DNA from: a virus
DNA length: 26,846 nt
Direction: 5' to 3' (one strand)
Virus record (IMG/VR): IMGVR_UViG_3300009103_000131
Coordinates: 1-26,846 of that record
Shown in pieces: positions 382-20,258 of the stretch. The position numbers and the translations under genes were made by a program. The notes below the pieces were generated by a model that worked only from the letters and a program-made list of their open reading frames with translations, had not been told where the DNA came from and did no database searches. The stretch's first letter is position 1, and the number at the start of each line of letters is the position of its first letter.

Positions 382-1155
382 TCACGCTGCTTGAGCGTCT
401 ATCTTTTTGATAATAAACTTAAGTATGTTTGATCTCATAATATCGTCTTTGTCGAAAACGAAAGAATGAATTTTTTCTTCTATGCTCTCTTCATCTGAGA
501 AGGCTTTCATTATCTTTGCGAAGCTTCCTCTGTTTCCGTTTTTTAGATCGGTTTGCCTATTGTCTCCGCATAGAAACATCTTGGTTCCTTCTCCTATTCT
601 TGTGAGAACGGTTACGATTTCTTTTAGCGAGCTGTTCTGGCACTCGTCAAAAACAACGCACTTATTGTTCCAACTCATACCTCTGCTGAAATTGACTGGA
701 TAAGTTGAGACTCGTCGACTCTTTTGTAATTTTTTGATTTCTTCGTCTGATACGAGCTCATTCAACTTATCCAAAAATGGTAAATTAAAGTAGTGCAACT
801 TGTCGTCTGCGTCTCCGGGCAAAAAGCCTAGTCTTGCGTCAGAGCTTTCCACGGCAGACCTTATGTAAGTTAGATCGTCTACTTTGCTGTCACTAAGAAG
901 CCTCAGTCCACAATAAACAGAAAGTAATGTTTTTGATGTACCTGCAGGCCCTTCTATAAAAATTATTTTGGATTTGTCGCTTAGAGCTAACTTGATTAAT
1001 TCTTTTTGTTTGTCTGTCCATTTGAAACTTTTAACGAAGAAGCTGTCTTTAGTTTTCGCTTTAGCGCTAATAGAAAGGACTCCTCCGTTACGTCCGTTAA
1101 GATATTCTAGTTCTTCTAATGAATCTAAAATAGCAGGAGCTTTTTTTCTTGCCAT
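382..1155 (-). CDS. phoH: PhoH-like ATPase
   Basis: A 257-aa P-loop ATPase of the PhoH family, frequent in phage genomes. The Walker A motif GPAGTSKT is at residues 69-76 and a Walker B motif CVVFDECQN lies around 166-174. A GDNRQTD segment near 197-203 matches the conserved PhoH sensor region. PhoH proteins are related to superfamily-1 helicases and bind or hydrolyse ATP; their job in phages is unsettled, with RNA processing and phosphate-stress roles both proposed. The first ~40 residues are a variable Lys-rich extension. A GTGTATTAAT box lies 18 nt upstream of the ATG, as at several genes in this half. Family assignment is secure. Confidence 0.95.
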   Translation of the reverse strand: MARKKAPAILDSLEELEYLNGRNGGVLSISAKAKTKDSFFVKSFKWTDKQKELIKLALSDKSKIIFIEGPAGTSKTLLSVYCGLRLLSDSKVDDLTYIRSAVESSDARLGFLPGDADDKLHYFNLPFLDKLNELVSDEEIKKLQKSRRVSTYPVNFSRGMSWNNKCVVFDECQNSSLKEIVTVLTRIGEGTKMFLCGDNRQTDLKNGNRGSFAKIMKAFSDEESIEEKIHSFVFDKDDIMRSNILKFIIKKIDAQAA

Positions 1156-1163
1156 GTCATAGT

Positions 1164-1173
1164 ATTAATACAC
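1164..1173 (-). promoter_or_regulatory. GTGTATTAAT box before phoH
   Basis: GTGTATTAAT begins 18 nt before the phoH ATG. The same box (GTGTAWTWWW) precedes five other genes in the first 7.4 kb, mostly at 16-18 nt. I infer a late or middle promoter element; no -35 hexamer is visible. Confidence 0.4.
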
Positions 1174-3329
1174 TACTCCGCAAGTAAGTATCCATACTTT
1201 TCTCTATTATCGGCATACACAAAATCTCCAGAGTTTCTCAAATTATAACAAAAAGTTATGAAGTCTCCTTTCTCCGGTGTAAAGTTCAAGCTGAATTTTC
1301 CTAAGCACCTTTTAACATACTTCTTCTTTATCAAAACAGCCTCTGCTACGTGAGGGCAATTCCAGACCCCCTTTGATTCCCTCGATACTATCTTGAAATA
1401 ATCTGGGAATTCCTCGTACCAACCATTATCATCTACACCCCTCCAAAAATTTGCATAAAGCTGATTTGGTACGTTTAATACAGGGGCTATGATTCCCTTA
1501 TCAGATTTAATTAAATTATTCAGGACATGAGGGTTGTTGAGTATAACATTAGACTTTATCAAAAAAGTATAGTCGTCACCAATTTCATTTGCGTACTCTA
1601 AGGCCTCGTCTAACTGTTTTACGTTTGCTTTAGCTTTCTTGAATTTAAAACTTTTGAAGCCACTTAAAATGTCCACCTGAGAACTAGAAAGACCTTCTTC
1701 CCCGCATATATAAATCGATATCTTTTCTTTAGGGTTGTTTAAGCAGGCTAACCCAAGAACAAAATTTTGCATCTCTTTATTATTCTTAATAAAAGCAAAT
1801 ATAGAAATAGAATAATCTTTTGAAAGTTTTCGTTCTTTAATCGGGTTATATAGAAAGTAGCCTAATCTATTACATGAAATATAATCACAAACCCTATTGA
1901 AAAAAATCTTCGCCCTAGGGCTTCCGTTTCCATGAACAATACAAGGAGAAGTATTAAACAATTTATTTATTAAATTACCTTCGCTACGTTCAGCAGGTAT
2001 CATATAATCCATATCTTCCCAACAACCTTCTGTAGGCTGAAACATAACGCACCGATGATCTAGTTCCATATCGTACTTACCCGAAAGTAATTTATGGGAA
2101 TAATAAAGCTGATCATCATCCGTATCTAATATGGACTCTTCTGTTATTTTTCTAAGCTCAGAAACAGTGCCGATAAAAGTTCCAGAGTTTAGATACTTGT
2201 ACGGAGAATCGGTTTGTGGGTAACTATTAGCTAAGCCCTCATCTGGCCAGCAAGACCTTTCCCCAGCAAAGACCACCTTGGAATTAAAAGTTTTATATCT
2301 TTCCAAGACAAATTCTATAGGCCCCGTAAATACAACATCGTATCCATCCACAAACACAATTAAGTCATCGTCATTTAATTCTTCGCTAGTAAGATATTCT
2401 TTCAGAAAGTTTATTTTTTGTCCTCCTCCGGGGTTCTCTAGTCTAGAAACGTTTCCTCCAGTCCAGCCTTTTTCTATTCCTAATACTTTTAACGGTATTC
2501 CGTACCTTAGAGCAGACTCTTTGAGTCTTATGAGACCGTCGGTTTCTTCAGTGGCTGCTGTTACGACTTTTAGTTTTAATTCTTTGTTTATATAATCGTA
2601 TCTACTTTGAAGCGCCATAGGTTCTCCTTTACCCGTTTCGCTATTTTCGAAGGCGCTATCTTCAGGAGAAACTAGATTACGACCTTCCATTACTGCAAAC
2701 GCATTTAATTTTTCCAAACCCCCGAATAGAGAATTAGCTTGTATGTTTCCGCCCCCTTCACAAACTCTCGATGGAACATACTCGTCTGAGGGAATTAGGT
2801 TTTTAAAATATTCTTTATCGAAAAGCTTTCTGGCTCCTTCTTGGCTTATCAGGGAAGCTAGGCACCAGTAGCTATACTTTGGTTTAACTAGCGTGGCTGA
2901 AACTTGTTCCTCTTCTTCTTTGGACATTTTATTCCTAGCTAAATAAATATAATCAAAATCATTTCCTCTTTCCTCCTTTATCTTGGAGCATCCTTCTATG
3001 AAATTTTTTTCTATAACGGCGTCGTCTTCTAGAAGTAACGCTACATTTACCTTATCCAAAATTATCTTTTCCCATGCTTTGGCATGGCTCAATGCGCATG
3101 CTATGTCGCCTTTGGTGAATGTTCTATTGCTCCAAGGTTCTCTCCATGAAGGAGCGGGCCTAATCCCCTTTTTTTTCAACCACTCCTCGGTAAGATCATC
3201 TCTATCTACAGCATCGATCCTTTCGATAGATGTGGAGTCCTGTAGAATTTCTCTTATCCTATCTCTAACTTTTTCGAACTTATGAAGGTTCCTTTCGACG
3301 TTAATGACATATATTTTATCGAAAATCAT
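1173..3329 (-). CDS. Glycosyltransferase: GT25 plus PLOD/LH3-like domains
   Basis: A 718-aa multidomain glycosyltransferase. Residues 1-215 look like GT25, with an early IYVINVERN strand, a DIACALSH segment and LLLEDD at 98-103. Residues ~253-490 resemble the glycosyltransferase domain of animal procollagen lysyl hydroxylases (PLOD/LH3): VVTAATEETDG, GGGQK, FVDGYDVVF (Asp328, Asp331), CWPD, LNSGTFIG and IVHGNG (His466). In LH3 the equivalent Asp-x-x-Asp and His bind the metal. Residues ~505-718 match the LH3 accessory domain (NFWRG at 627, GVWNCPH at 654, YADNREKYG near the end). The PLOD C-terminal lysyl-hydroxylase domain is absent; a separate 2OG-Fe(II) oxygenase lies at 7625-8191. Likely role is sugar transfer to a protein or glycan acceptor; the acceptor is unknown. 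Confidence 0.85.
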   Translation of the reverse strand: MIFDKIYVINVERNLHKFEKVRDRIREILQDSTSIERIDAVDRDDLTEEWLKKKGIRPAPSWREPWSNRTFTKGDIACALSHAKAWEKIILDKVNVALLLEDDAVIEKNFIEGCSKIKEERGNDFDYIYLARNKMSKEEEEQVSATLVKPKYSYWCLASLISQEGARKLFDKEYFKNLIPSDEYVPSRVCEGGGNIQANSLFGGLEKLNAFAVMEGRNLVSPEDSAFENSETGKGEPMALQSRYDYINKELKLKVVTAATEETDGLIRLKESALRYGIPLKVLGIEKGWTGGNVSRLENPGGGQKINFLKEYLTSEELNDDDLIVFVDGYDVVFTGPIEFVLERYKTFNSKVVFAGERSCWPDEGLANSYPQTDSPYKYLNSGTFIGTVSELRKITEESILDTDDDQLYYSHKLLSGKYDMELDHRCVMFQPTEGCWEDMDYMIPAERSEGNLINKLFNTSPCIVHGNGSPRAKIFFNRVCDYISCNRLGYFLYNPIKERKLSKDYSISIFAFIKNNKEMQNFVLGLACLNNPKEKISIYICGEEGLSSSQVDILSGFKSFKFKKAKANVKQLDEALEYANEIGDDYTFLIKSNVILNNPHVLNNLIKSDKGIIAPVLNVPNQLYANFWRGVDDNGWYEEFPDYFKIVSRESKGVWNCPHVAEAVLIKKKYVKRCLGKFSLNFTPEKGDFITFCYNLRNSGDFVYADNREKYGYLLAE

Positions 3330-3369: not shown

Positions 3370-3849
3370 ATGGAAAAAGAAGCAATAGATACCATCACTA
3401 GTCCTGAATTCAAAGGAGTTGTTCAGGATTTTCTTGGTAATTATGGGTGGATCATTTTGGTAGCGTTATTGGGCTTTTTCTTCAAGGAAACCGTTCATAA
3501 AGCAGTGGAGGGCTTTATGGTTTGGATGGGCCATGATTTCGATAATGATGATGTTTTATACATTTCTGGCAGACAAGCTAGAATAATTCGCGTTGGAATT
3601 TTAAAAACGGTCTTTTACATGACAGACAGGGGAACTAAGATGATTGTTCCCAATGACAGGTTAAAGATGCTCACCGTTGAAAAGAAGTTAGACAAAAACG
3701 GCGGTACTCCATATTTATGGTCTGGAAGCGAATCCGGATTTAAAGAACAATTCCTAAAAGAAAAAGGAAAAGCCATAACTGCTATAAAAATAGATCCAGC
3801 TCACATCAACGAAGAACTTGGAATTGAGACCCCTGAAGATCGGAAATAA
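3370..3849 (+). CDS. MscS-like mini membrane protein
   Basis: A 159-aa protein read from the ATG at 3370, chosen over an upstream in-frame start because that start would overlap the divergent gene and skip the GTGTAATTTA box. One strong membrane helix (WIILVALLGFFF) is followed by a soluble part whose pattern, FDNDDVLYISGRQARIIRVGILKTVFYMTDRG then IVPNDRL (given here as spaced landmarks), resembles the beta domain of small-conductance mechanosensitive channels, where F-x-x-GD-x-V and iPN are typical. It is much shorter than MscS and has only one evident helix, so it may be a truncated or channel-modulating form. The last 44 nt overlap the 3' end of the opposing glycosyltransferase gene. Confidence 0.55.
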   Translation: MEKEAIDTITSPEFKGVVQDFLGNYGWIILVALLGFFFKETVHKAVEGFMVWMGHDFDNDDVLYISGRQARIIRVGILKTVFYMTDRGTKMIVPNDRLKMLTVEKKLDKNGGTPYLWSGSESGFKEQFLKEKGKAITAIKIDPAHINEELGIETPEDRK

Positions 3850-4711
3850 CAGATTTTATCTTTTGATAAGATTGTTTTTTTTGTTTTTCATCTCCGAAAC
3901 AGTGAACAAATGGTATAGGGTCTTTTGTCTCGATAGGCTTGTCTTTCCCTATTTTTTCGTGGTGCGTTGAGAACCACTTCCAAGTTTGTATATAATGAGG
4001 AATGATCAGCTTGTCGGCTAAATAACCGGCTATTTCAAAAGTCATTATAGGATATAACTCATAAGTCAATAAATTAAAATTCATTTTGGAAAGAGCATAT
4101 CCGAAAAGAATTTCATCCGTCATTGCTCCTGCGATATTGTTCCTATCTTCAAACCCCCTGAAAAAACCGAGCTTGTCGTAGTTAACAAAAGCATATAGAA
4201 GGTGAAGGAAAAATGTTTCCAGCTCTTTTGTTCCGAAATCTTTGTTTATATAAAATATTCCTCCGTGCGCGCAATTTATATTCGTTTGTAGCTTTTCGTT
4301 GATTTCATCTATGTGAGACCAATGATAAGAAGGGTCATGGTAGCCACCTACGCAATTGAAAGGTTGCCCTTTGTCTCTAAAGGTGTCCCAAGCTTTGTCT
4401 GCGCTATAGATACAAAGTACATCGGTATCTATCACAATACATTCTCTATATGGAATATAGTCAAGAAGTTTGAGCCTAGGAAAAATGCAGTATTCTTCAT
4501 GGGTGTTTCTACATAAACCGAACAGAGGCTCGTTCTCGGAAAAGATAATCACATGGTCAAATATATTTCGAGACAAAGCGTATTCATGGTCTTCTTTCTT
4601 AACTAGGATAGAAACCGGAAGATCATCCCCAAAAGCCCTTATGGAAGAAATGAACTGAACAGACTCCTCAATGTATTTCCTCCCAAGAGCTAATTGAAAA
4701 TATCCTTTCAT
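3806..4711 (-). CDS. GT8-like glycosyltransferase
   Basis: A 301-aa protein with a GT-A glycosyltransferase outline. An N-terminal strand (GYFQLALG) is followed by KLLDYIPYRECIVIDTD, in which DTD at 95-97 is the likely metal- and nucleotide-sugar-binding DxD motif. Further landmarks are CAHGGIFYINK around 148-158 and VHCFGDE near 270, comparable to the late His of GT8-type enzymes. No signal peptide or membrane segment is visible, so it should act in the cytoplasm. Together with the GT25/PLOD fusion, the FkbM methyltransferase and the sulfotransferase-like protein it suggests glycan or virion-surface modification. Assignment to GT8 rather than a related family is tentative. Confidence 0.65.
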   Translation of the reverse strand: MKGYFQLALGRKYIEESVQFISSIRAFGDDLPVSILVKKEDHEYALSRNIFDHVIIFSENEPLFGLCRNTHEEYCIFPRLKLLDYIPYRECIVIDTDVLCIYSADKAWDTFRDKGQPFNCVGGYHDPSYHWSHIDEINEKLQTNINCAHGGIFYINKDFGTKELETFFLHLLYAFVNYDKLGFFRGFEDRNNIAGAMTDEILFGYALSKMNFNLLTYELYPIMTFEIAGYLADKLIIPHYIQTWKWFSTHHEKIGKDKPIETKDPIPFVHCFGDEKQKKQSYQKIKSVISDLQGSQFQVLR

Positions 4712-4759
4712 ATTATTTGATTATATGAAAATTTAACACAATACCTAAGTCTTATAAAA

Positions 4760-5122
4760 ATGTACGAATATTCAGCTAAATTAATAAGAGTAGTAGACGG
4801 AGATACGGTCGATGCACTGATTGATTGCGGATTCAGCACCTTCAAAAAAGAACGTATTAGGCTATATGGAATTAATGCCCCAGAAAGCAGAACTAGAGAC
4901 AAAGCTGAGAAAAAGAGAGGCCTAGCTGCTAAAGCCCGTCTTAAAGAATTGATAAAAAAAGGTAAAAACAAATTTATCGTACAAACAAAGATAGACAAAA
5001 AAGGGAAGTTTGGACGCTTATTAGGCGAACTGTTTAACAGTGAAGTAGACGCCTATAAAACTTACAATGAAATTTTAGTAGATGAAGGACACGCTACAGA
5101 GTATTACGGCGGGAAGAAATAG
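4760..5122 (+). CDS. Staphylococcal-nuclease-like endonuclease
   Basis: A 120-aa thermonuclease-fold (SNase) protein, nearly only the catalytic core. VVDGDTVDALID at 11-22, IRLYGINAPE at 33-42 and KFGRLLGEL at 83-91 match the calcium-binding and catalytic positions of the family (metal Asp residues, the Arg in IRL, the Glu after AP, and the Arg in GR). It would cut DNA or RNA to 3'-phosphate ends. No secretion signal is present, so it acts inside the cell, perhaps in host DNA breakdown. The opposite-strand frame over this gene is a shadow. Confidence 0.9.
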   Translation: MYEYSAKLIRVVDGDTVDALIDCGFSTFKKERIRLYGINAPESRTRDKAEKKRGLAAKARLKELIKKGKNKFIVQTKIDKKGKFGRLLGELFNSEVDAYKTYNEILVDEGHATEYYGGKK

Positions 5123-5174
5123 ATGGCTTTTTTGGGTTGTTTTCTTTTTAATTGGCTGGATTTCTATAATTCTT

Positions 5175-5184
5175 GTGTATTAAT
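5175..5184 (+). promoter_or_regulatory. GTGTATTAAT box
   Basis: GTGTATTAAT begins 22 nt before the ATG at 5197; same sequence as the box before phoH. Confidence 0.35.
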
Positions 5185-5196
5185 AACTCAAGACTT

Positions 5197-5454
5197 ATGG
5201 AAGTATCATACGTATTAGACGCTGCCTTTGGATTAGCAGCAATGTTTTTGGGATGGACAGTAAATCGCATATACCACAGCATAGACGAGTTATGGAGAAA
5301 ACATGATGATACCACGCAACGAATAACAAAGTTAGCCATAGAGCTACCAAAGCAATACGTTACGAAAGACGACCTTTCTAAAGCAATAGATATAATTCAT
5401 GAAAGGTTTGACAAAATAGATGCCAAATTAGATCAATTAAATAAATCTAAATAG
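5197..5454 (+). CDS. Small membrane-anchored coiled-coil protein
   Basis: An 85-aa protein from the ATG at 5197. Residues ~5-22 form one hydrophobic helix (AAFGLAAMFLGW). The rest is charged and helical, ending in a heptad-like stretch IHERFDKIDAKLDQL. Such N-terminally anchored coiled coils are common as small phage membrane proteins, including some near lysis genes, but nothing here proves a lysis function. It sits between the nuclease and a second small membrane protein. Confidence 0.6.
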   Translation: MEVSYVLDAAFGLAAMFLGWTVNRIYHSIDELWRKHDDTTQRITKLAIELPKQYVTKDDLSKAIDIIHERFDKIDAKLDQLNKSK

Positions 5455-5475
5455 TTTTCTCCTGTGTATCTTAAT

Positions 5476-5485
5476 GTGTAATTTA
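5476..5485 (+). promoter_or_regulatory. GTGTAATTTA box
   Basis: GTGTAATTTA begins 39 nt before the ATG at 5515. This is the longest spacing among the copies, and this gene is also the one with a clear Shine-Dalgarno (GGGAG, 5506-5510). Confidence 0.35.
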
Positions 5486-5514
5486 GTTAGCCCTGCTGGG
5501 TGGTAGGGAGAAGT

Positions 5515-5832
5515 ATGATGAAAAAAAACGTATCTATGAAGACATTAACTATAACTAAGGTCGGCACATGGTCCTTTGCAAACTTTGCTGGTTTGATGGG
5601 AGTCGTTACGGGAGCAATCAAGGGTATTGTTTTACCTATACTTGCTGCCGTAGGTTCTGGTGGACTTGCTGACGTTGACGCTGCAGTAAAGAGTGTTAGC
5701 TCGGCTGTCGCTACCGACATTTCTGCTGTTGCCGCTTTTGGCATAGCAGGTTGGGTAGCAGGTTGGGTTTATGCTTGGATTGCTAATTGGGTATTGAAGG
5801 CTACTAAAGGCATTCATTTTGAAACCAGTTAA
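5515..5832 (+). CDS. Small Gly/Ala-rich membrane protein
   Basis: A 105-aa protein with two hydrophobic helices (about residues 20-45 and 75-95) and a Gly-rich end, GWVAGWVYAWIANW. The outline, two helices with a G-x-x-x-G/W-rich second helix and a short GIHFE tail, is reminiscent of DUF3566-like small membrane proteins; this is a weak resemblance. It has a real ribosome-binding site (GGGAG, four bases before the ATG), rare in this half, and is followed by a palindrome and a strong terminator, so it is probably expressed strongly as a single-gene unit. A holin role is possible but unproven. Confidence 0.6.
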   Translation: MMKKNVSMKTLTITKVGTWSFANFAGLMGVVTGAIKGIVLPILAAVGSGGLADVDAAVKSVSSAVATDISAVAAFGIAGWVAGWVYAWIANWVLKATKGIHFETS

Positions 5833-5848
5833 TTAAGGACGTCCTTAA
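5833..5848. repeat. Perfect 16-bp palindrome
   Basis: TTAAGGACGTCCTTAA reads the same on both strands. It begins at the stop codon of the small membrane protein and lies 11 bp before the terminator stem. It could be a dimer-binding site; no second copy was seen in the window. Confidence 0.6.
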
Positions 5849-5852
5849 GAAA

Positions 5853-5889
5853 AAAACTACCCCACTTCGAAAGAGGTGGGGTTTTTTTT
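5853..5889 (+). terminator. Strong intrinsic terminator
   Basis: CCCCAC at 5860 pairs with GTGGGG at 5876-5881, followed by eight T. An A-tract precedes the stem, so it could also act on the opposite strand. It closes the 5515-5832 unit. Confidence 0.9.
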
Positions 5890-5901
5890 CGTCTAATTTC
5901 T

Positions 5902-6519
5902 ATGGACTTTTCTGAGTTTAAGCAGTATTCGAAAATAGTTGTTTCTGGGCCTCAAAGATCAGGTACTAATCTCGTATCGAAAGTTCTGTGCGAAGAGCTT
6001 GGTTATACTTTCATAGACGAAGAAGAGTTCGGCTTTCATTTCGAAAAAGACTTTATGGAAATTTTAACGAATAAAAGTAAAATAATAATGCAAGCTCCGG
6101 GTATGTCTCATATTTTGCATAAGCTAACAGAATCTAGTGCTTGCATTGTTTTTTGCCTGAGAGACCCATCAGAGATAATGCAGTCACAGCATAATTTAAA
6201 CTGGGCAGGAGAATCATTCGAAAGACAGAAGTACACGAGACCCGAATACGACTATCTACCCATAGGACTAGTAAAATACATAGAATGGTTCTTTCACCAG
6301 AGAAGCGAGCTTAAAATACCATACAAAGAAATATATTATAATTCATTTAAAAATCATAAATTATGGATCAATAAAGAAAATAGAAAAAAACCAAAAAGAT
6401 GGGCCGTAGTAGATAAAAGCAGCCCAGACGGCTTCGAAAGGTACAATGGAAGCTGGTGCCTGCCAGTTATCCCTCTAGAGTGGGAAAATCAAAAAAACAT
6501 AGAAAAAAGAAAGATTTAA
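5902..6519 (+). CDS. Sulfotransferase-like P-loop protein
   Basis: A 205-aa protein with SGPQRSGT at 15-22, the P-loop-like 5'-phosphosulfate-binding motif of PAPS-dependent sulfotransferases. A second landmark, CIVFCLRDPSEIMQSQ, fits the conserved R-x-P motif that binds the 3'-phosphate. The C-terminal part is Lys-rich and variable. If active, it would transfer sulfate to a glycan or another acceptor, in keeping with the nearby glycosyltransferases. A nucleotide kinase-like function is the main alternative. It starts 12 nt after the terminator T-run. Confidence 0.65.
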   Translation: MDFSEFKQYSKIVVSGPQRSGTNLVSKVLCEELGYTFIDEEEFGFHFEKDFMEILTNKSKIIMQAPGMSHILHKLTESSACIVFCLRDPSEIMQSQHNLNWAGESFERQKYTRPEYDYLPIGLVKYIEWFFHQRSELKIPYKEIYYNSFKNHKLWINKENRKKPKRWAVVDKSSPDGFERYNGSWCLPVIPLEWENQKNIEKRKI

Positions 6520-6521
6520 TG

Positions 6522-6531
6522 GTGTAATTAC
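6522..6531 (+). promoter_or_regulatory. GTGTAATTAC box
   Basis: GTGTAATTAC begins 17 nt before the ATG at 6539, the same distance as at 3370. Confidence 0.4.
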
Positions 6532-6538
6532 ATCTGGT

Positions 6539-6778
6539 ATGAAAAACCATTATAACACTCTTTGGAATTATCTTAATCATCCTGTCGAAGCGGAATACTC
6601 CGATAAAGAAAAAAAGCTGGCTGGCGTAGCCGTTAAGCAAGTTGTTGACAAGCTCAAGGCCCTACTAGAAGAATGGCCTGATAAAGAGCACCCCTACTAC
6701 AAAGATGTTCAAGAAGTGGTTAAATCAAGCAACCCGACAGTAAGAACCCCAAAAGGCGTTATTCATTTGCCTTATTGA
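6539..6778 (+). CDS. Hypothetical protein (79 aa)
   Basis: I do not recognise this 79-aa protein. It is hydrophilic and mostly helical, with a Lys/Glu-rich middle, and ends in a short beta-like tail (GVIHLPY). No motif, signal or membrane segment is visible. A GTGTA box at the usual distance and no overlap with neighbours support it as a real gene. It is followed by the HIT-like gene after 35 bp. Confidence 0.6.
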   Translation: MKNHYNTLWNYLNHPVEAEYSDKEKKLAGVAVKQVVDKLKALLEEWPDKEHPYYKDVQEVVKSSNPTVRTPKGVIHLPY

Positions 6779-6813
6779 TGAATTCGTAGGCTTGCCAGAA
6801 AGTTATCTATAAA

Positions 6814-7167
6814 GTGCGTACTAAATGCGAACTTTGCGAACTAAAAACGAGGCTGCATGTCTATGAGGAGACTGATAGGTGGATTATTATAGATTGTATG
6901 TCATGCTTCCTCCCTATGGCCGTCTGGTGGGGTTCTCCTTTGCATACGATGGATATTTCGGACAAGGACGCCCAAGATATGGAAAAGGCTCTGAGGGACA
7001 TAGGAGAGGCTAAATTTGGCAAGGTGAACATGTACATAGACAAAGTACAAAATCAAGTACCAGACCATCTCCACTGGCACGCCAGACCATATGGCTGGAT
7101 ACCAGATTTTTTAAAATATAAAGCCCCGGATGATCCTGAGGTATTGATATGGAAATCTAAAAGATGA
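6814..7167 (+). CDS. HIT-like protein with CxxC motif
   Basis: A 117-aa protein with a GTG start; no in-frame ATG lies nearby. HLHWHARP at 85-92 is close to the His-x-His-x-His histidine-triad motif of nucleotide hydrolases and transferases, and the strand before it (VNMYIDKVQNQVPD) fits the fold. CELC at 5-8 and CMSC at 28-31 could bind zinc, as in some branches of the HIT family. It would act on nucleotidyl phosphate bonds, substrate unknown. Its stop overlaps the next start (ATGA), so the two are translationally coupled. Confidence 0.75.
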   Translation: MRTKCELCELKTRLHVYEETDRWIIIDCMSCFLPMAVWWGSPLHTMDISDKDAQDMEKALRDIGEAKFGKVNMYIDKVQNQVPDHLHWHARPYGWIPDFLKYKAPDDPEVLIWKSKR

Positions 7168-7358
7168 CCAAAACGGAACAAGAAACTGTATGTATCGCAA
7201 ATCAACTAATAACTATACTCACTTATCATAATTCTATTATCTTAGGTAAGCATAATAAATATGAAGATACTGTCGATGAAATGGTCTCCGAAATAGAAAA
7301 AGTTAAACATAAGTTAGTTTTCCTGCGTAATGGAACAAATAACAAAAAACATGTGTAA
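7164..7358 (+). CDS. Small coiled-coil protein
   Basis: A 64-aa protein starting inside the stop of the HIT-like gene (ATGA overlap). The C-terminal half, VDEMVSEIEKVKHKLVFL, has a heptad pattern. No family recognised. The overlap is the main reason to accept it. Confidence 0.55.
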   Translation: MTKTEQETVCIANQLITILTYHNSIILGKHNKYEDTVDEMVSEIEKVKHKLVFLRNGTNNKKHV

Positions 7359-7362
7359 TATT
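7353..7362 (+). promoter_or_regulatory. GTGTAATATT box
   Basis: GTGTAATATT begins 16 nt before the ATG at 7369 and contains the stop of the preceding gene. Confidence 0.4.
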
Positions 7363-7368
7363 TAAGAG

Positions 7369-7632
7369 ATGCCGGAGTATACTGGAAACAACCCGATGAT
7401 TTTGTCCTCTTTGATTCATGCAGAGACAGACGCAGATTTTCTTGCAACAGGCTACAAAGCTAAAATCACCGACCTACTCGATTCCGGCAACGCTGCGCAT
7501 CTCAACACCCTCAAGAACCACGTCGGCAGAGAATATTTTAGCAAATTATATGAGTTGGGTAAATCTGCCTCTATAACAGACCCTCACGACTCAGGATTTC
7601 GTCCTACCGCGGTTACCGGGTTATATGCTTAA
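7369..7632 (+). CDS. Hypothetical protein (87 aa)
   Basis: An unrecognised 87-aa protein, soluble and mainly helical, with a conserved-looking C-terminus (HDSGFRPTAVTGLYA). The GTGTA box 16 nt upstream and an 8-nt overlap with the following oxygenase gene support it. The overlap suggests coupled translation and perhaps a shared task with the oxygenase. Confidence 0.6.
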   Translation: MPEYTGNNPMILSSLIHAETDADFLATGYKAKITDLLDSGNAAHLNTLKNHVGREYFSKLYELGKSASITDPHDSGFRPTAVTGLYA

Positions 7633-8191
7633 AGTTACAGAGAATGTTCTGCCAGATAATCTGTGCCGCTCATTAATCGAAGAGTATCAAGATAAACCCG
7701 AAGTAGATAGAACCAACCATCATCGCAACCCATCCAAGGGCTTAATTCCTTCGTATGCTCCGGGGACACACTCAATGCACACGTTCGACGGACCCAAGAA
7801 AGAGTTTAGGTATAGTTCTTATATACTTGTAAATGATATAGTTGGCCAGCTTAAGAAAAGAGTCCTCATGGCTCTACAGGACAAGGGAATGGCATTCTCC
7901 TTAAAAGCTGCCTGTATGTTTTATAGGTGGTCAAATTTTTCATATTATCCTGCTCATGCGGATGCGGGGTTTGCCCAATCTGCTTCCATTTATTTAAATG
8001 AAAATTATTCCACAAATGATGGCGGAATGTTTCTATACAAGGATAACGAAAGATGGATAGGCATAGAGCCGAGTTTTAACAGGTCCGTCTACTTTGACCA
8101 AACGAATCATCCTGAAGGGATCCTGCATATGGTAACCCCCGTAACTAGCAATAGAGAGAGGATGTCTATTCAACTATTTGAAGAAGATTAA
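7625..8191 (+). CDS. 2-oxoglutarate/Fe(II) dioxygenase
   Basis: A 188-aa protein of the prolyl-4-hydroxylase-like double-stranded beta-helix type. HAD at 111-113 gives the iron-binding His-x-Asp; the distal His is His168 (GILHMV), and Arg177 or Arg179 nine to eleven residues later would bind 2-oxoglutarate. The segments SIYLNENYSTNDGG and the aromatic-rich FYRWSNFSYYPAHAD match P4H-type enzymes. It should hydroxylate a protein or small molecule using O2 and 2-oxoglutarate. Given the PLOD-like transferase at 1173-3329, a hydroxylate-then-glycosylate pair is an appealing but unproven idea. It overlaps the convergent FkbM gene by four bases. Confidence 0.85.
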   Translation: MLKVTENVLPDNLCRSLIEEYQDKPEVDRTNHHRNPSKGLIPSYAPGTHSMHTFDGPKKEFRYSSYILVNDIVGQLKKRVLMALQDKGMAFSLKAACMFYRWSNFSYYPAHADAGFAQSASIYLNENYSTNDGGMFLYKDNERWIGIEPSFNRSVYFDQTNHPEGILHMVTPVTSNRERMSIQLFEED

Positions 8192-8850
8192 TAAATCCCA
8201 TAAATATCTTCTTTTTCTTTAAATGTGTGGTATTTATGCTTTTTAAGTATATTTAATATATCTTCGGGGGTCTTCCCGTTTGCTTCCGTATGTTTATGTT
8301 CAATTTTTATCATTGTCGGGCGTATTTTAAAGTTGTAATTCTCAAGTATATGTAACTCATGTCCCTCAACGTCAATTTGCATATAATCTATTGAATCTAG
8401 ATCAAGCATCTCTACTAACGTATTCAACGTGACACATTTTACAGTAATACTTTCAAAAGATAAATATTCATTGTCTGGAACACCGTATCTTATTCCTTCA
8501 ACATTCGCAAAATCAACATAAGACGTCCCTCTGTACCATGATACATCTCCCTCTTTAATGGGTGAATCCACGAGACCAGAGTTTTTGTGACCTAGAATTT
8601 TCTTCATCTTGAGCTCGCCATCGTTATCCGAGACAGCCATGTTGATAACCGCCGCTTGAAGGCCTTCGGCCGCTATATTTTTTTGCATATTTTCCGCTAG
8701 TAACGGAATCGGTTCAACAAAAGCGCCCCGCCATCCGTTCCTGCACAGGGGAAGCAATGTATCGAAATCGCTTGAGCCTATTTCTATAAATGTTTTTATA
8801 TTTTTATTATATTGGTTTAAACTGGGGTTGTATATTATAAATTTGGATAT
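8188..8850 (-). CDS. FkbM-type methyltransferase, unusual start
   Basis: An FkbM-family SAM-dependent methyltransferase. The clear landmark is SIDYMQIDVEGHE, the D-x-EG-x-E motif of the family, with LEYxxxRP-like text after it. The SAM-binding glycine motif FIEIGSSDFDT lies upstream of the first usable TTG (8757), so a TTG start would cut off the cofactor site. The frame stays open back to a TAA at 8856-8854 but offers no ATG, GTG or TTG there; the first candidate is ATA at 8850, with no Shine-Dalgarno. Either a non-canonical start is used or the start has been lost. FkbM enzymes usually O-methylate sugars or polyketides. Confidence 0.75.
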   Translation of the reverse strand: MSKFIIYNPSLNQYNKNIKTFIEIGSSDFDTLLPLCRNGWRGAFVEPIPLLAENMQKNIAAEGLQAAVINMAVSDNDGELKMKKILGHKNSGLVDSPIKEGDVSWYRGTSYVDFANVEGIRYGVPDNEYLSFESITVKCVTLNTLVEMLDLDSIDYMQIDVEGHELHILENYNFKIRPTMIKIEHKHTEANGKTPEDILNILKKHKYHTFKEKEDIYGIY

Positions 8851-15759: not shown

Positions 15760-15834
15760 TGGACGCGAGGGTCGGAATCGAACCGACGATTGCGGTTTTG
15801 CAGACCGCCGCCTTAACCACTTGGCCACCTCGCG
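15760..15834 (-). tRNA. tRNA-Cys (GCA), CCA encoded
   Basis: A complete 75-nt tRNA. Acceptor CGCGAGG pairs with CCTCGCG, discriminator T, encoded CCA; D arm GGCCAAGTGGTTAAGGC; anticodon stem GCGGT/ACCGC with loop CTGCAAA (anticodon GCA); T arm GTCGG-TTCGATT-CCGAC. A short phage tRNA could support the cysteine-rich small proteins encoded here. No promoter of its own is clear; it lies downstream of the 15931-16507 genes past their terminator, with repeat R5 directly after its 3' end. Confidence 0.95.
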
Positions 15835-19411: not shown

Positions 19412-19473
19412 TTTTGCATTCTAATTATGATAGCTACGCAAAACCATAAAACCAACAGTCCTATGATTAGCAT
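19408..19473 (-). CDS. Membrane microprotein (21 aa)
   Basis: A 21-aa ORF, almost all one hydrophobic helix (LIIGLLVLWFCVAIII) with a basic end. Its ATG lies in the GP88 stop (TAATG) and its TGA in the next ATG (ATGA), so it exactly bridges two genes. The fit of both overlaps is the main argument that it is translated; conservation would decide. Confidence 0.5.
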   Translation of the reverse strand: MLIIGLLVLWFCVAIIIRMQK

Positions 19474-20219
19474 TATGCGGCCTTGTACCCTGTGAATCCT
19501 TTCTTTTTGAGTTCCCGCAAAGCCTTTGCAGACTTACTACCTTTTGGCTGCACCCCATGCAGGAGCAAACCAAAATCCTTTTCGCCATGTATGGCAAATT
19601 CATCGGTGTGGTCAACATCCAAACCCAATGCGTCAATTTCCTCTTGTGAAAAAAATACTGTCGCTTTTTTGACTCCCAGCCCAGCGATCAAATGGTCAAA
19701 CTTACCACCTGACGAACAAGTGAAAACATAGTTGCTCGGCAACGCTTCCGAACATTGAAGATACCTAGCCAGAAACTGAACGCTTTTTGTATAACTGTAA
19801 AATGTCACCAAAGGGAAACGCTTTGCCGCTTCCATCCATGCGTCAAAATAGTCATATGAGAAAAAATCCCCCCCAATATGCACACGCAAGAAACCGCCAA
19901 TCTTCTGCAGCCCTTCGGGTATACTTCGGCAAATCAAATCCGTCATTCCTGTCACTGTTTTCGCCCTTGCTAACTTGTCAAGATTATCCCAACGAGCTTT
20001 TCTCACGGAAGGGTAGGTTGCTTCCATCCCTGCTGCATAACAACGATACGATACGCCGTCGACTGGTGTCGACCTGTCTGTCAGCTTGCCTGTCGCCCTG
20101 TCGGCCTTTGTGAGGCAATTCTTCGCGCCGGGACAAGTCCAGCCAGAGGGCAATGAGAAGTGCCAAATGCCTTTCAGCTTGGCGTTTTCAAATGTAATCA
20201 GTAGTTTATCAATTCCCAT
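19473..20219 (-). CDS. GP88-family phage protein
   Basis: A 248-aa protein of the phage 'gene product 88' family, known mainly from actinophages. Landmarks: an opening strand (KLLITFENAKL), SGWTCPGAKNC and RCYAAGMEATYP with cysteines placed as in a metal- or cluster-binding site, HIGGDFFSYDYFDAWMEAA and FYSYTKS. The function of the family is not established; the CxxxxxC and GGDF segments suggest an enzyme. I use ATG 20219 rather than an upstream frame, since gttATGGGA follows the promoter at 20230-20258. It leads a three-gene overlapping unit. Confidence 0.8.
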   Translation of the reverse strand: MGIDKLLITFENAKLKGIWHFSLPSGWTCPGAKNCLTKADRATGKLTDRSTPVDGVSYRCYAAGMEATYPSVRKARWDNLDKLARAKTVTGMTDLICRSIPEGLQKIGGFLRVHIGGDFFSYDYFDAWMEAAKRFPLVTFYSYTKSVQFLARYLQCSEALPSNYVFTCSSGGKFDHLIAGLGVKKATVFFSQEEIDALGLDVDHTDEFAIHGEKDFGLLLHGVQPKGSKSAKALRELKKKGFTGYKAA

Positions 20220-20229
20220 AACGCAAACA

Positions 20230-20258
20230 AGTATAGCAAAGAGGGGGACGAATGTCAA
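20230..20258 (-). promoter_or_regulatory. Consensus promoter of the GP88 operon
   Basis: TTGACA (20258-20253), 17 bp ending TTTGC, TATACT (20235-20230). It begins just after the T-run of the preceding terminator. Confidence 0.9.

Follow-up and report, generated by a model that had tools for sequence, protein, structure and literature searches.

A GT25-GT_PLOD fusion protein of tailed phages as a probable two-step glycosyltransferase of collagen-like tail fibres

Glucosyl-galactosyl-hydroxylysine counts as a characteristic mark of animal collagen, mimivirus being the recognized exception. In humans COLGALT1 (GLT25D1), whose catalytic metal core is an EDD motif (E435-D436-D437; PMC13382579), and LH3 (PLOD3) are two distinct polypeptides that associate with each other (PDB 8zgc), and the mimivirus enzyme R699 glucosylates galactosyl-hydroxylysine only (PMC9546862). 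A review describes prokaryotic collagens as mostly free of hydroxylation and glycosylation (PMC8968730), and prolyl-hydroxylase enzymes are stated to be absent from bacteria and viruses in a paper about prophage collagens (PMC3368898); phage prolyl 4-hydroxylase genes and tail-fibre collagen have been mentioned before (PMC9301287). No paper on a phage lysyl hydroxylase (LH) or PLOD was found in the open-access literature (subscription journals not covered). Here we describe a glycosyltransferase (GT) gene in IMG/VR record IMGVR_UViG_3300009103_000131 (G000), a 26.8-kb fragment of a marine bacterial virus whose full 26,846 nucleotides are referred to as the window. The open reading frame (ORF) at 1173–3329 is on the minus strand, has an ATG start, and encodes 718 amino acids (Table 1).

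The protein is probably a bifunctional hydroxylysine galactosyl/glucosyltransferase of a tailed phage, acting in two steps on the phage's own collagen-like tail fibre. In the predicted chemistry, fibre lysines at the Y position of Gly-X-Lys triplets would be hydroxylated in trans by an LH-like enzyme encoded elsewhere in the same genome, the GT25 site would add galactose to the hydroxylysine in the manner of COLGALT1, and the GT_PLOD site would add glucose to that galactose in the manner of LH3 and R699, with the accessory (AC) domain as a scaffold. We infer this substrate and this order of sugars for the window enzyme; COLGALT- and LH3-like domains would be fused because R699-type glucosylation needs galactosyl-hydroxylysine. 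The sugars might serve the stability or solubility of the fibre, or recognition involving host and phage. The domains, the fold, the conserved active-site residues and the linkage of the family to Gly-X-Lys fibres and LH-like domains were computed directly.

The preliminary description of the gene, made from the sequence alone, had placed PLOD/LH3-like domains at residues ~253–718, fused to a GT25 domain, and both assignments hold. Pfam locates GT_PLOD (PF25342) at residues 250–484 (E 2.8e-67; 227 bits against a curated cut-off of 27 bits) and Glyco_transf_25 (PF01755) at residues 3–142 (E 4e-19); an NCBIfam scan gave no match. In sequence searches of the PDB, residues 245–717 align with the GT and AC domains of human LH3 (E 8e-61) and residues 257–715 with R699 (6e-49); a fragment of the protein used as query aligns with R699 over its residues 13–470 (2e-49, ~460 residues). 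The N-terminal 240 residues searched alone match COLGALT1 and nothing else (E ~2e-26), and residues 2–189 align with COLGALT1 310–500.

Each of these relatives differs from the phage protein in its architecture. R699 (PMC9546862, PMC11838735; PDB 9dyt, 9e92) has the same virus-encoded layout of GT_PLOD followed by AC without LH, and its catalytic residues are kept, although the phage protein has an added N-terminal GT25 domain and its virus infects bacteria. Human LH3 (PDB 6fxr, 6wfv) shares the GT fold, an alignment through GT and AC over LH3 33–516, and the key residues; the phage polypeptide lacks the C-terminal LH domain, the chain stopping after AC and the gene having no match to an LH-like profile. 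COLGALT1 (PDB 9evj, 8zgc) shares the catalytic GalT-C fold, within which the phage protein has both the GT25 profile and the EDD metal core. However, the GT25 domain begins at residue 1 with no N-terminal GalT-N domain, and the AC domain, described as GalT-N-like, sits C-terminally instead. The catalytic domains that are divided between two human proteins are thus present in one phage chain.

An AlphaFold2 model of the window protein (mean predicted local distance difference test score, pLDDT, 77.8; low at residues 225–249 and 619–661) has LH3, R699 and COLGALT1 as its top Foldseek families, and comparison of this fold with LH3 bears out the preliminary description: the model is LH3 GT plus AC joined to the COLGALT1 catalytic domain, and the metal-site residues are present in the aligned sequence. 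By VIA-align, residues 248–484 superpose on the LH3 GT domain (6wfv) with Z 30.6 and a root-mean-square deviation (rmsd) of 2.3 Å over 227 residues, and residues 1–248 on COLGALT1 338–580 (9evj_A) with Z 27.9 and 2.4 Å over 233. Residues 248–718 match LH3 33–516 with Z 30.9 and 418 aligned residues at an rmsd of 10.6, so that the domain orientation is not reproduced in the model; the R699-type GT plus AC fold matches with Z ~30 over ~400 residues. A better match among ordinary bacterial transferases was looked for, and bacterial GT25 galactosyltransferases reach Z ~16 as compared to ~28–31 for the collagen enzymes. These values bear on the possibility that this is an ordinary phage GT25-type transferase that alters host lipopolysaccharide or another surface sugar to block co-infection, its PLOD likeness reflecting descent only. 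Pfam describes GT25 in terms of lipopolysaccharide biosynthesis, and glycosyltransferases encoded in the host-recognition islands of pelagiphages are as a rule taken to be surface modifiers (PMC7029224), although with collagen enzymes as the closest structures, the tight and controlled linkage to Gly-X-Lys collagen genes described below, and LH domains fused or in trans, we consider a surface-sugar role very improbable.

Comparison with LH3 residues implicated in metal binding, UDP binding or activity (PMC6082870, PMC10342707) indicates that all mapped metal- and UDP-binding residues and nearly all activity-essential residues are kept in the aligned phage sequence. The identical LH3 sites are T46, W75 (W289 in the window protein), V80, K89, D112 (D328), Y114 (Y330), D115 (D331), E141 (E357), W145 (W361), N165 (N381), S166, D190 (D405), D191 (D406), Q192 (Q407), H253 (H466), N255 (N468) and K259 (K474), and include the equivalents of Asp190 and Trp145, which are tied to LH3-specific glucosyl transfer. 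The metal-site residues Asp328 and Asp331 and the HGNG residue His466, named in the preliminary description, align exactly with LH3 Asp112, Asp115 and His253 and, like Tyr330 and Trp289, occur unchanged in each of the 29 phage relatives compared. Trp92, Phe143, Trp148 and Asn223 of LH3 are replaced and the AC DxD (LH3 392–394) is not kept. In the GT25 domain, Glu101 and Asp103 are conserved in all 29 aligned phage proteins and Asp102 in 28. Both active sites look competent, because the LH3 and EDD residues are kept and are almost invariant in the 29 proteins.

An alternative is a single transfer to collagen, either of glucose directly to hydroxylysine with GT25 playing a structural part only, or of galactose alone. 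Precedents are mimivirus L230, a known hydroxylysyl glucosyltransferase that reportedly acts directly on hydroxylysine, and COLGALT1, in which one of the two GT domains is catalytically dormant. However, almost every relative retains the metal core of each domain, the six phage members scanned all have GT25 joined to GT_PLOD, and R699, which has the same GT plus AC layout, requires galactosyl-hydroxylysine, so that a single transfer seems unlikely.

Homologues were found by tblastn in 13 INPHARED records, including those of Synechococcus phages S-CAM9, S-PRM1 and S-8S53/55/56 and roseophage CRP-6, where they are labelled 'hypothetical' or '2OG-Fe(II) oxygenase' (2OG, 2-oxoglutarate). An alignment query gave at least 292 IMG/VR relatives, 80 of which were kept for analysis. 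The majority are 'LH-type' proteins with GT25, GT_PLOD and a C-terminal 2OG domain; the 'AC-type' members are the window protein, L012, L013, G176, G177 and G203. A profile of the LH-type C-terminal domain searched against the whole PDB matches the mimivirus L230 lysyl hydroxylase (1.1e-18) and LH3 (1.2e-16), with the next family at 0.008, and an AlphaFold2 model of an LH-type protein (pLDDT 89.3) matches LH3, R699, COLGALT1 and the L230 LH domain. L230 is likewise a virus-encoded enzyme of collagen lysine modification, and no PDB entry matches this phage domain better than the LH domain of L230, although the window protein has no LH domain. The window protein also matches the cyanophage profile PHROG_61 (26–384; 1.5e-56), the annotation of which names only a 2OG-Fe(II) oxygenase; the LH-type homologues of the isolates are composed of GT25, GT_PLOD and LH-like domains, and the window branch has AC in place of the oxygenase domain. 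The preliminary statement that the hydroxylase is missing is thus correct for this protein and not for the system, which has it fused in most relatives and in trans in G177.

The enzyme gene is situated just downstream of a collagen-like fibre gene in S-CAM9, S-PRM1, S-8S55, S-8S56 and CRP-6. In the four cyanophages a fibre gene with 55–59 Gly-X-Y triplets precedes a pair of small genes, labelled 2OG oxygenases in all but one of these phages, and then comes the enzyme gene; in CRP-6 the genes ahead of it are tail-fibre genes with 99 triplets. At least eight consecutive triplets are present at 54 of 79 IMG/VR loci, and all 24 loci with at least 7 kb of upstream sequence have a same-strand upstream collagen-like fibre gene, at a median gap of 1,054 bp. 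The small 2OG-Fe(II) oxygenases between fibre and GT genes, and two more farther downstream in S-8S55 and S-8S56 (together L004 1787–2967 and 6496–7745; L009 13252–14417; L010 17853–19102), possibly act on proline or lysine of the fibre.

The collagens beside the enzyme were collapsed at 90% identity to 24 clusters with 3,519 Gly-X-Y triplets, and controls were drawn from a pattern scan, made blind, for viral collagens of every kind in a sample of at least 80 records. Lysine occupies Y in 808 of the enzyme-linked triplets and X in none, as a Y-position hydroxylase would select; in the 79 control collagens it occupies Y in 323 and X in 96 of 5,478 triplets. The median Y-lysine fraction is 0.200 in enzyme-linked collagens and 0.004 in controls (Mann-Whitney p 4e-11), and the motif KGQKG is in 24 of 24 enzyme-linked clusters as compared to one of 79 controls (Fisher 1.4e-22); the loci within each set are related by descent, so these p-values describe a contrast rather than independent events. 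GT_PLOD was found in one of 80 random viral collagen records (L162), itself one of two with KGQKG. The collagen linkage is strong, as are the family resemblance and the active sites; the chemistry is a prediction.

Within the window lineage, defined by PhoH relatives (50 records) and serving as a within-lineage control, three records encode AC-type enzymes that share ~36% identity with the full-length window protein. The collagen of the sister phage G177 (a 162-kb record) has a Y-lysine fraction of 0.37, and that of L013 (record G084), which has an enzyme 31% identical by BLASTP, has 0.71 (193 of 273) and is encoded directly after short structural genes. Twelve lineage records have collagen and no strong GT_PLOD match (one, G166, has a weak partial match), and their Y-lysine fractions are 0.00–0.06. 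G177 also encodes a stand-alone 174-residue protein (L473 2226–2750) that matches the LH3 hydroxylase domain at 7e-18. The 2OG-site residues (HxD, distal His, Arg) are present in the alignment, and four residues read as X from masked bases. A full set of Lys-rich collagen, in-trans hydroxylase and GT25-GT_PLOD-AC enzyme thus exists in one genome of the window lineage, because G177 has all three.

This lineage pattern also bears on the idea of hitch-hiking in hypervariable tail-fibre modules, whereby Lys-rich collagens and enzymes would share lineages without interacting. Many of the loci are from related marine myophages, and fibre modules commonly hold collagens without GT_PLOD too. The same pattern nevertheless recurs in unrelated phages (Kyanoviridae, CRP-6 and the window lineage) and a few bacteria, Y-lysine tracks the presence of GT_PLOD inside the window lineage, and the absence of lysine from X is as expected of selection by a Y-position hydroxylase; of the alternatives weighed here, hitch-hiking is the most improbable, by a little.

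Several observations weigh against a two-step collagen glycosyltransferase in the window phage. The preliminary description had called for a search for collagen acceptors, and this found Gly-X-Lys fibre genes beside the enzyme in isolates and most relatives and none in the window fragment: neither the window, negative even at four triplets, nor two other IMG/VR contigs of the same phage (99–100% identical where matching, and reaching past the left end of the window) contain a collagen gene, the available genome being a fragment. A clear LH domain is likewise absent from the window and these contigs, and the 2OG ORF in the window, 4.3 kb from the glycosyltransferase gene, is related to LH weakly (not significant against the LH-like domain profile). 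The fibre and hydroxylase of the window phage would lie in the unsequenced part of its genome; exact 39–42-mers of the far end of L003, one stretch of the same phage, and of the right end of the window gave no further contig. The two-step order of sugars is predicted from homology, the G177 collagen lacks KGQKG, and 35 of 50 records with repeated KGQKG collagen are without GT_PLOD (15 carry it).

The last point is qualified in that at least five KGQKG records without GT_PLOD have an LH-like domain joined to transferases of other kinds. Among seven GT_PLOD-negative KGQKG records searched, chosen mainly for size and including L151, six have an LH-like domain, five at E < 1e-20, although two of these five strong records (G131 and G150) look nearly identical in the region, so that the independent count is below five. 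Control collagen records have the domain in two of 50 cases, none below 1e-20 (Fisher 5e-6). The four LH-like proteins examined also carry GT4 and sometimes GT25, and L151, the sole KGQKG control collagen without GT_PLOD, encodes a GT4-GT25 protein ending in an LH-like domain. Proteins of this kind, with GT4 (sometimes with GT25) and an LH-like end, are located at L217 15524–17776, L474 2517–4736, L475 1759–3453 and L476 2937–4613, and seem to be an alternative way of doing the same job. A strict KGQKG rule was rejected on account of G177 and the 35 of 50 records. The window 2OG ORF was also rejected as a lysyl hydroxylase (profile comparison probability 1.4%; phrog_61 4e-4) and remains a weak candidate.

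Contigs of bacterial genomes also contain matches to the enzyme, at 38 loci. Collagen-like genes are present in the retrieved DNA of six of the better-matching loci (L336, L337, L338, L340, L342 from Streptomyces kronopolitis, and L343 from Kaistia terrae), and several of these also have LH-like ORFs. L340 branches inside the phage sequences and may be of viral origin. In S. kronopolitis (L342 7317–10500) the gene for a GT_PLOD plus 2OG (LH-like) protein has a collagen-like gene rich in Gly-Pro on one side and a distinct GT25-like gene on the other, and in K. terrae the GT_PLOD ORF has an LH-like match and the collagen-like gene is several kb away. In the proteobacterial metagenome-assembled contigs L336–L338, collagen genes of the GPP type are accompanied by a GT25-GT_PLOD region and by a distinct LH-like ORF; since proline dominates these collagens, prolyl hydroxylation may matter too.

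In a FastTree phylogeny of the GT domain, LH3 and R699 fall among the AC-type (window-type) phages with support 0.82, apart from LH-type phages and bacteria; the tree is small, with two non-phage reference tips and a midpoint root, so direction is not readable from it. A broader proposal, which we put forward tentatively and regard as doubtful in its entirety, is that the whole animal-type Gly-X-Lys pathway of hydroxylation, galactosylation and glucosylation operates on tail fibres in tailed phages and in a small number of bacteria, with the window branch as the prokaryotic-virus branch closest to LH3 and R699. Because that branch is closest, there may be a recent common origin for the phage enzymes and those of animals and giant viruses.

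Putative genes for modifying enzymes are clustered at positions 3806–8757 of the window and encode the glycosyltransferase, the sulfotransferase-like protein, the 2OG oxygenase and the FkbM methyltransferase of Table 1. Conjecturally, the glycosyltransferase, FkbM and sulfotransferase-like products could extend the glycan. An FkbM homologue was recognized by eye in the sister phage L013, where additional GT25 proteins and a nucleotide-sugar transferase are encoded as well. At 15760–15834, on the minus strand, there is a tRNA-Cys gene (anticodon GCA), and a PHROG 1392 protein is encoded at 19473–20258, with a homologue near the GT gene in the sister record G176 (L459 187–906). To the left of the window, L003 5983–7979 encodes two type IV prepilin-like proteins with an N-terminal methylation motif, adjoining a gene for an ankyrin-repeat protein with a cyclase-like C-terminus, a cargo that is out of the ordinary and may give a clue to the host. 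In the window lineage the neighbour of a portal-like gene (L013 15157–16314 and L460 13697–14158) encodes a protein that has a GGGTGTG-type motif and resembles phage proteins of the FtsZ/tubulin-like kind.

Table 1. Positions of the fusion gene, its domains and motifs, and neighbouring genes in the window.
Feature	Coordinates	Strand	Basis
GT25 + GT_PLOD + AC fusion glycosyltransferase, 718 aa	1173..3329	-	Pfam PF01755 and PF25342; LH3/R699/COLGALT1 sequence matches; AlphaFold2 and PDB fold search
GT25 domain, residues ~1-225, COLGALT1 catalytic (GalT-C)-like	2655..3329	-	Fold match 9evj_A; phmmer 2e-26
Glu101-Asp102-Asp103, equivalent of COLGALT1 E435-D436-D437 metal core	3021..3029	-	Alignment
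GT_PLOD domain, residues 245-484, LH3 glucosyltransferase domain-like	1878..2597	-	PF25342; 6wfv fold match
DxxD motif Asp328-Gly-Tyr330-Asp331 (LH3 Asp112/Tyr114/Asp115)	2337..2348	-	Alignment; role from PMC6082870
HGNG motif, His466 (LH3 His253) and Asn468 (LH3 Asn255)	1923..1934	-	Alignment
AC-like domain, residues ~497-718	1176..1841	-	LH3 aligned through residue 516; phmmer alignment
PhoH-like ATPase, downstream of fusion gene	382..1155	-	PF02562 E 1.4e-46
Putative glycosyltransferase adjoining fusion gene	3806..4711	-	PHROG_1903 E 4.6e-22; Mannosyl_trans3 E 0.015
Sulfotransferase-like protein	5902..6519	+	PF13469 E 6.8e-5, below curated cut-off
2OG-Fe(II) oxygenase, 188 aa	7625..8191	+	PF13640 E 3.8e-8; phrog_61 positions 448-618 E 4e-4
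FkbM-family methyltransferase	8188..8757	-	PF05050 E 3.2e-16; TIGR01444 E 6.5e-16

Bacterial viruses may hydroxylate and glycosylate collagen much like animals. If so, a large class of marine phage fibres would bear a modification that has gone unrecognised, with possible effects on host range and stability, and the cultivable phages S-CAM9, S-PRM1 and CRP-6 would be available as test systems. The enzymes would also provide compact single-chain tools for modifying recombinant collagen, and would allow the origin of the animal collagen pathway to be approached afresh.
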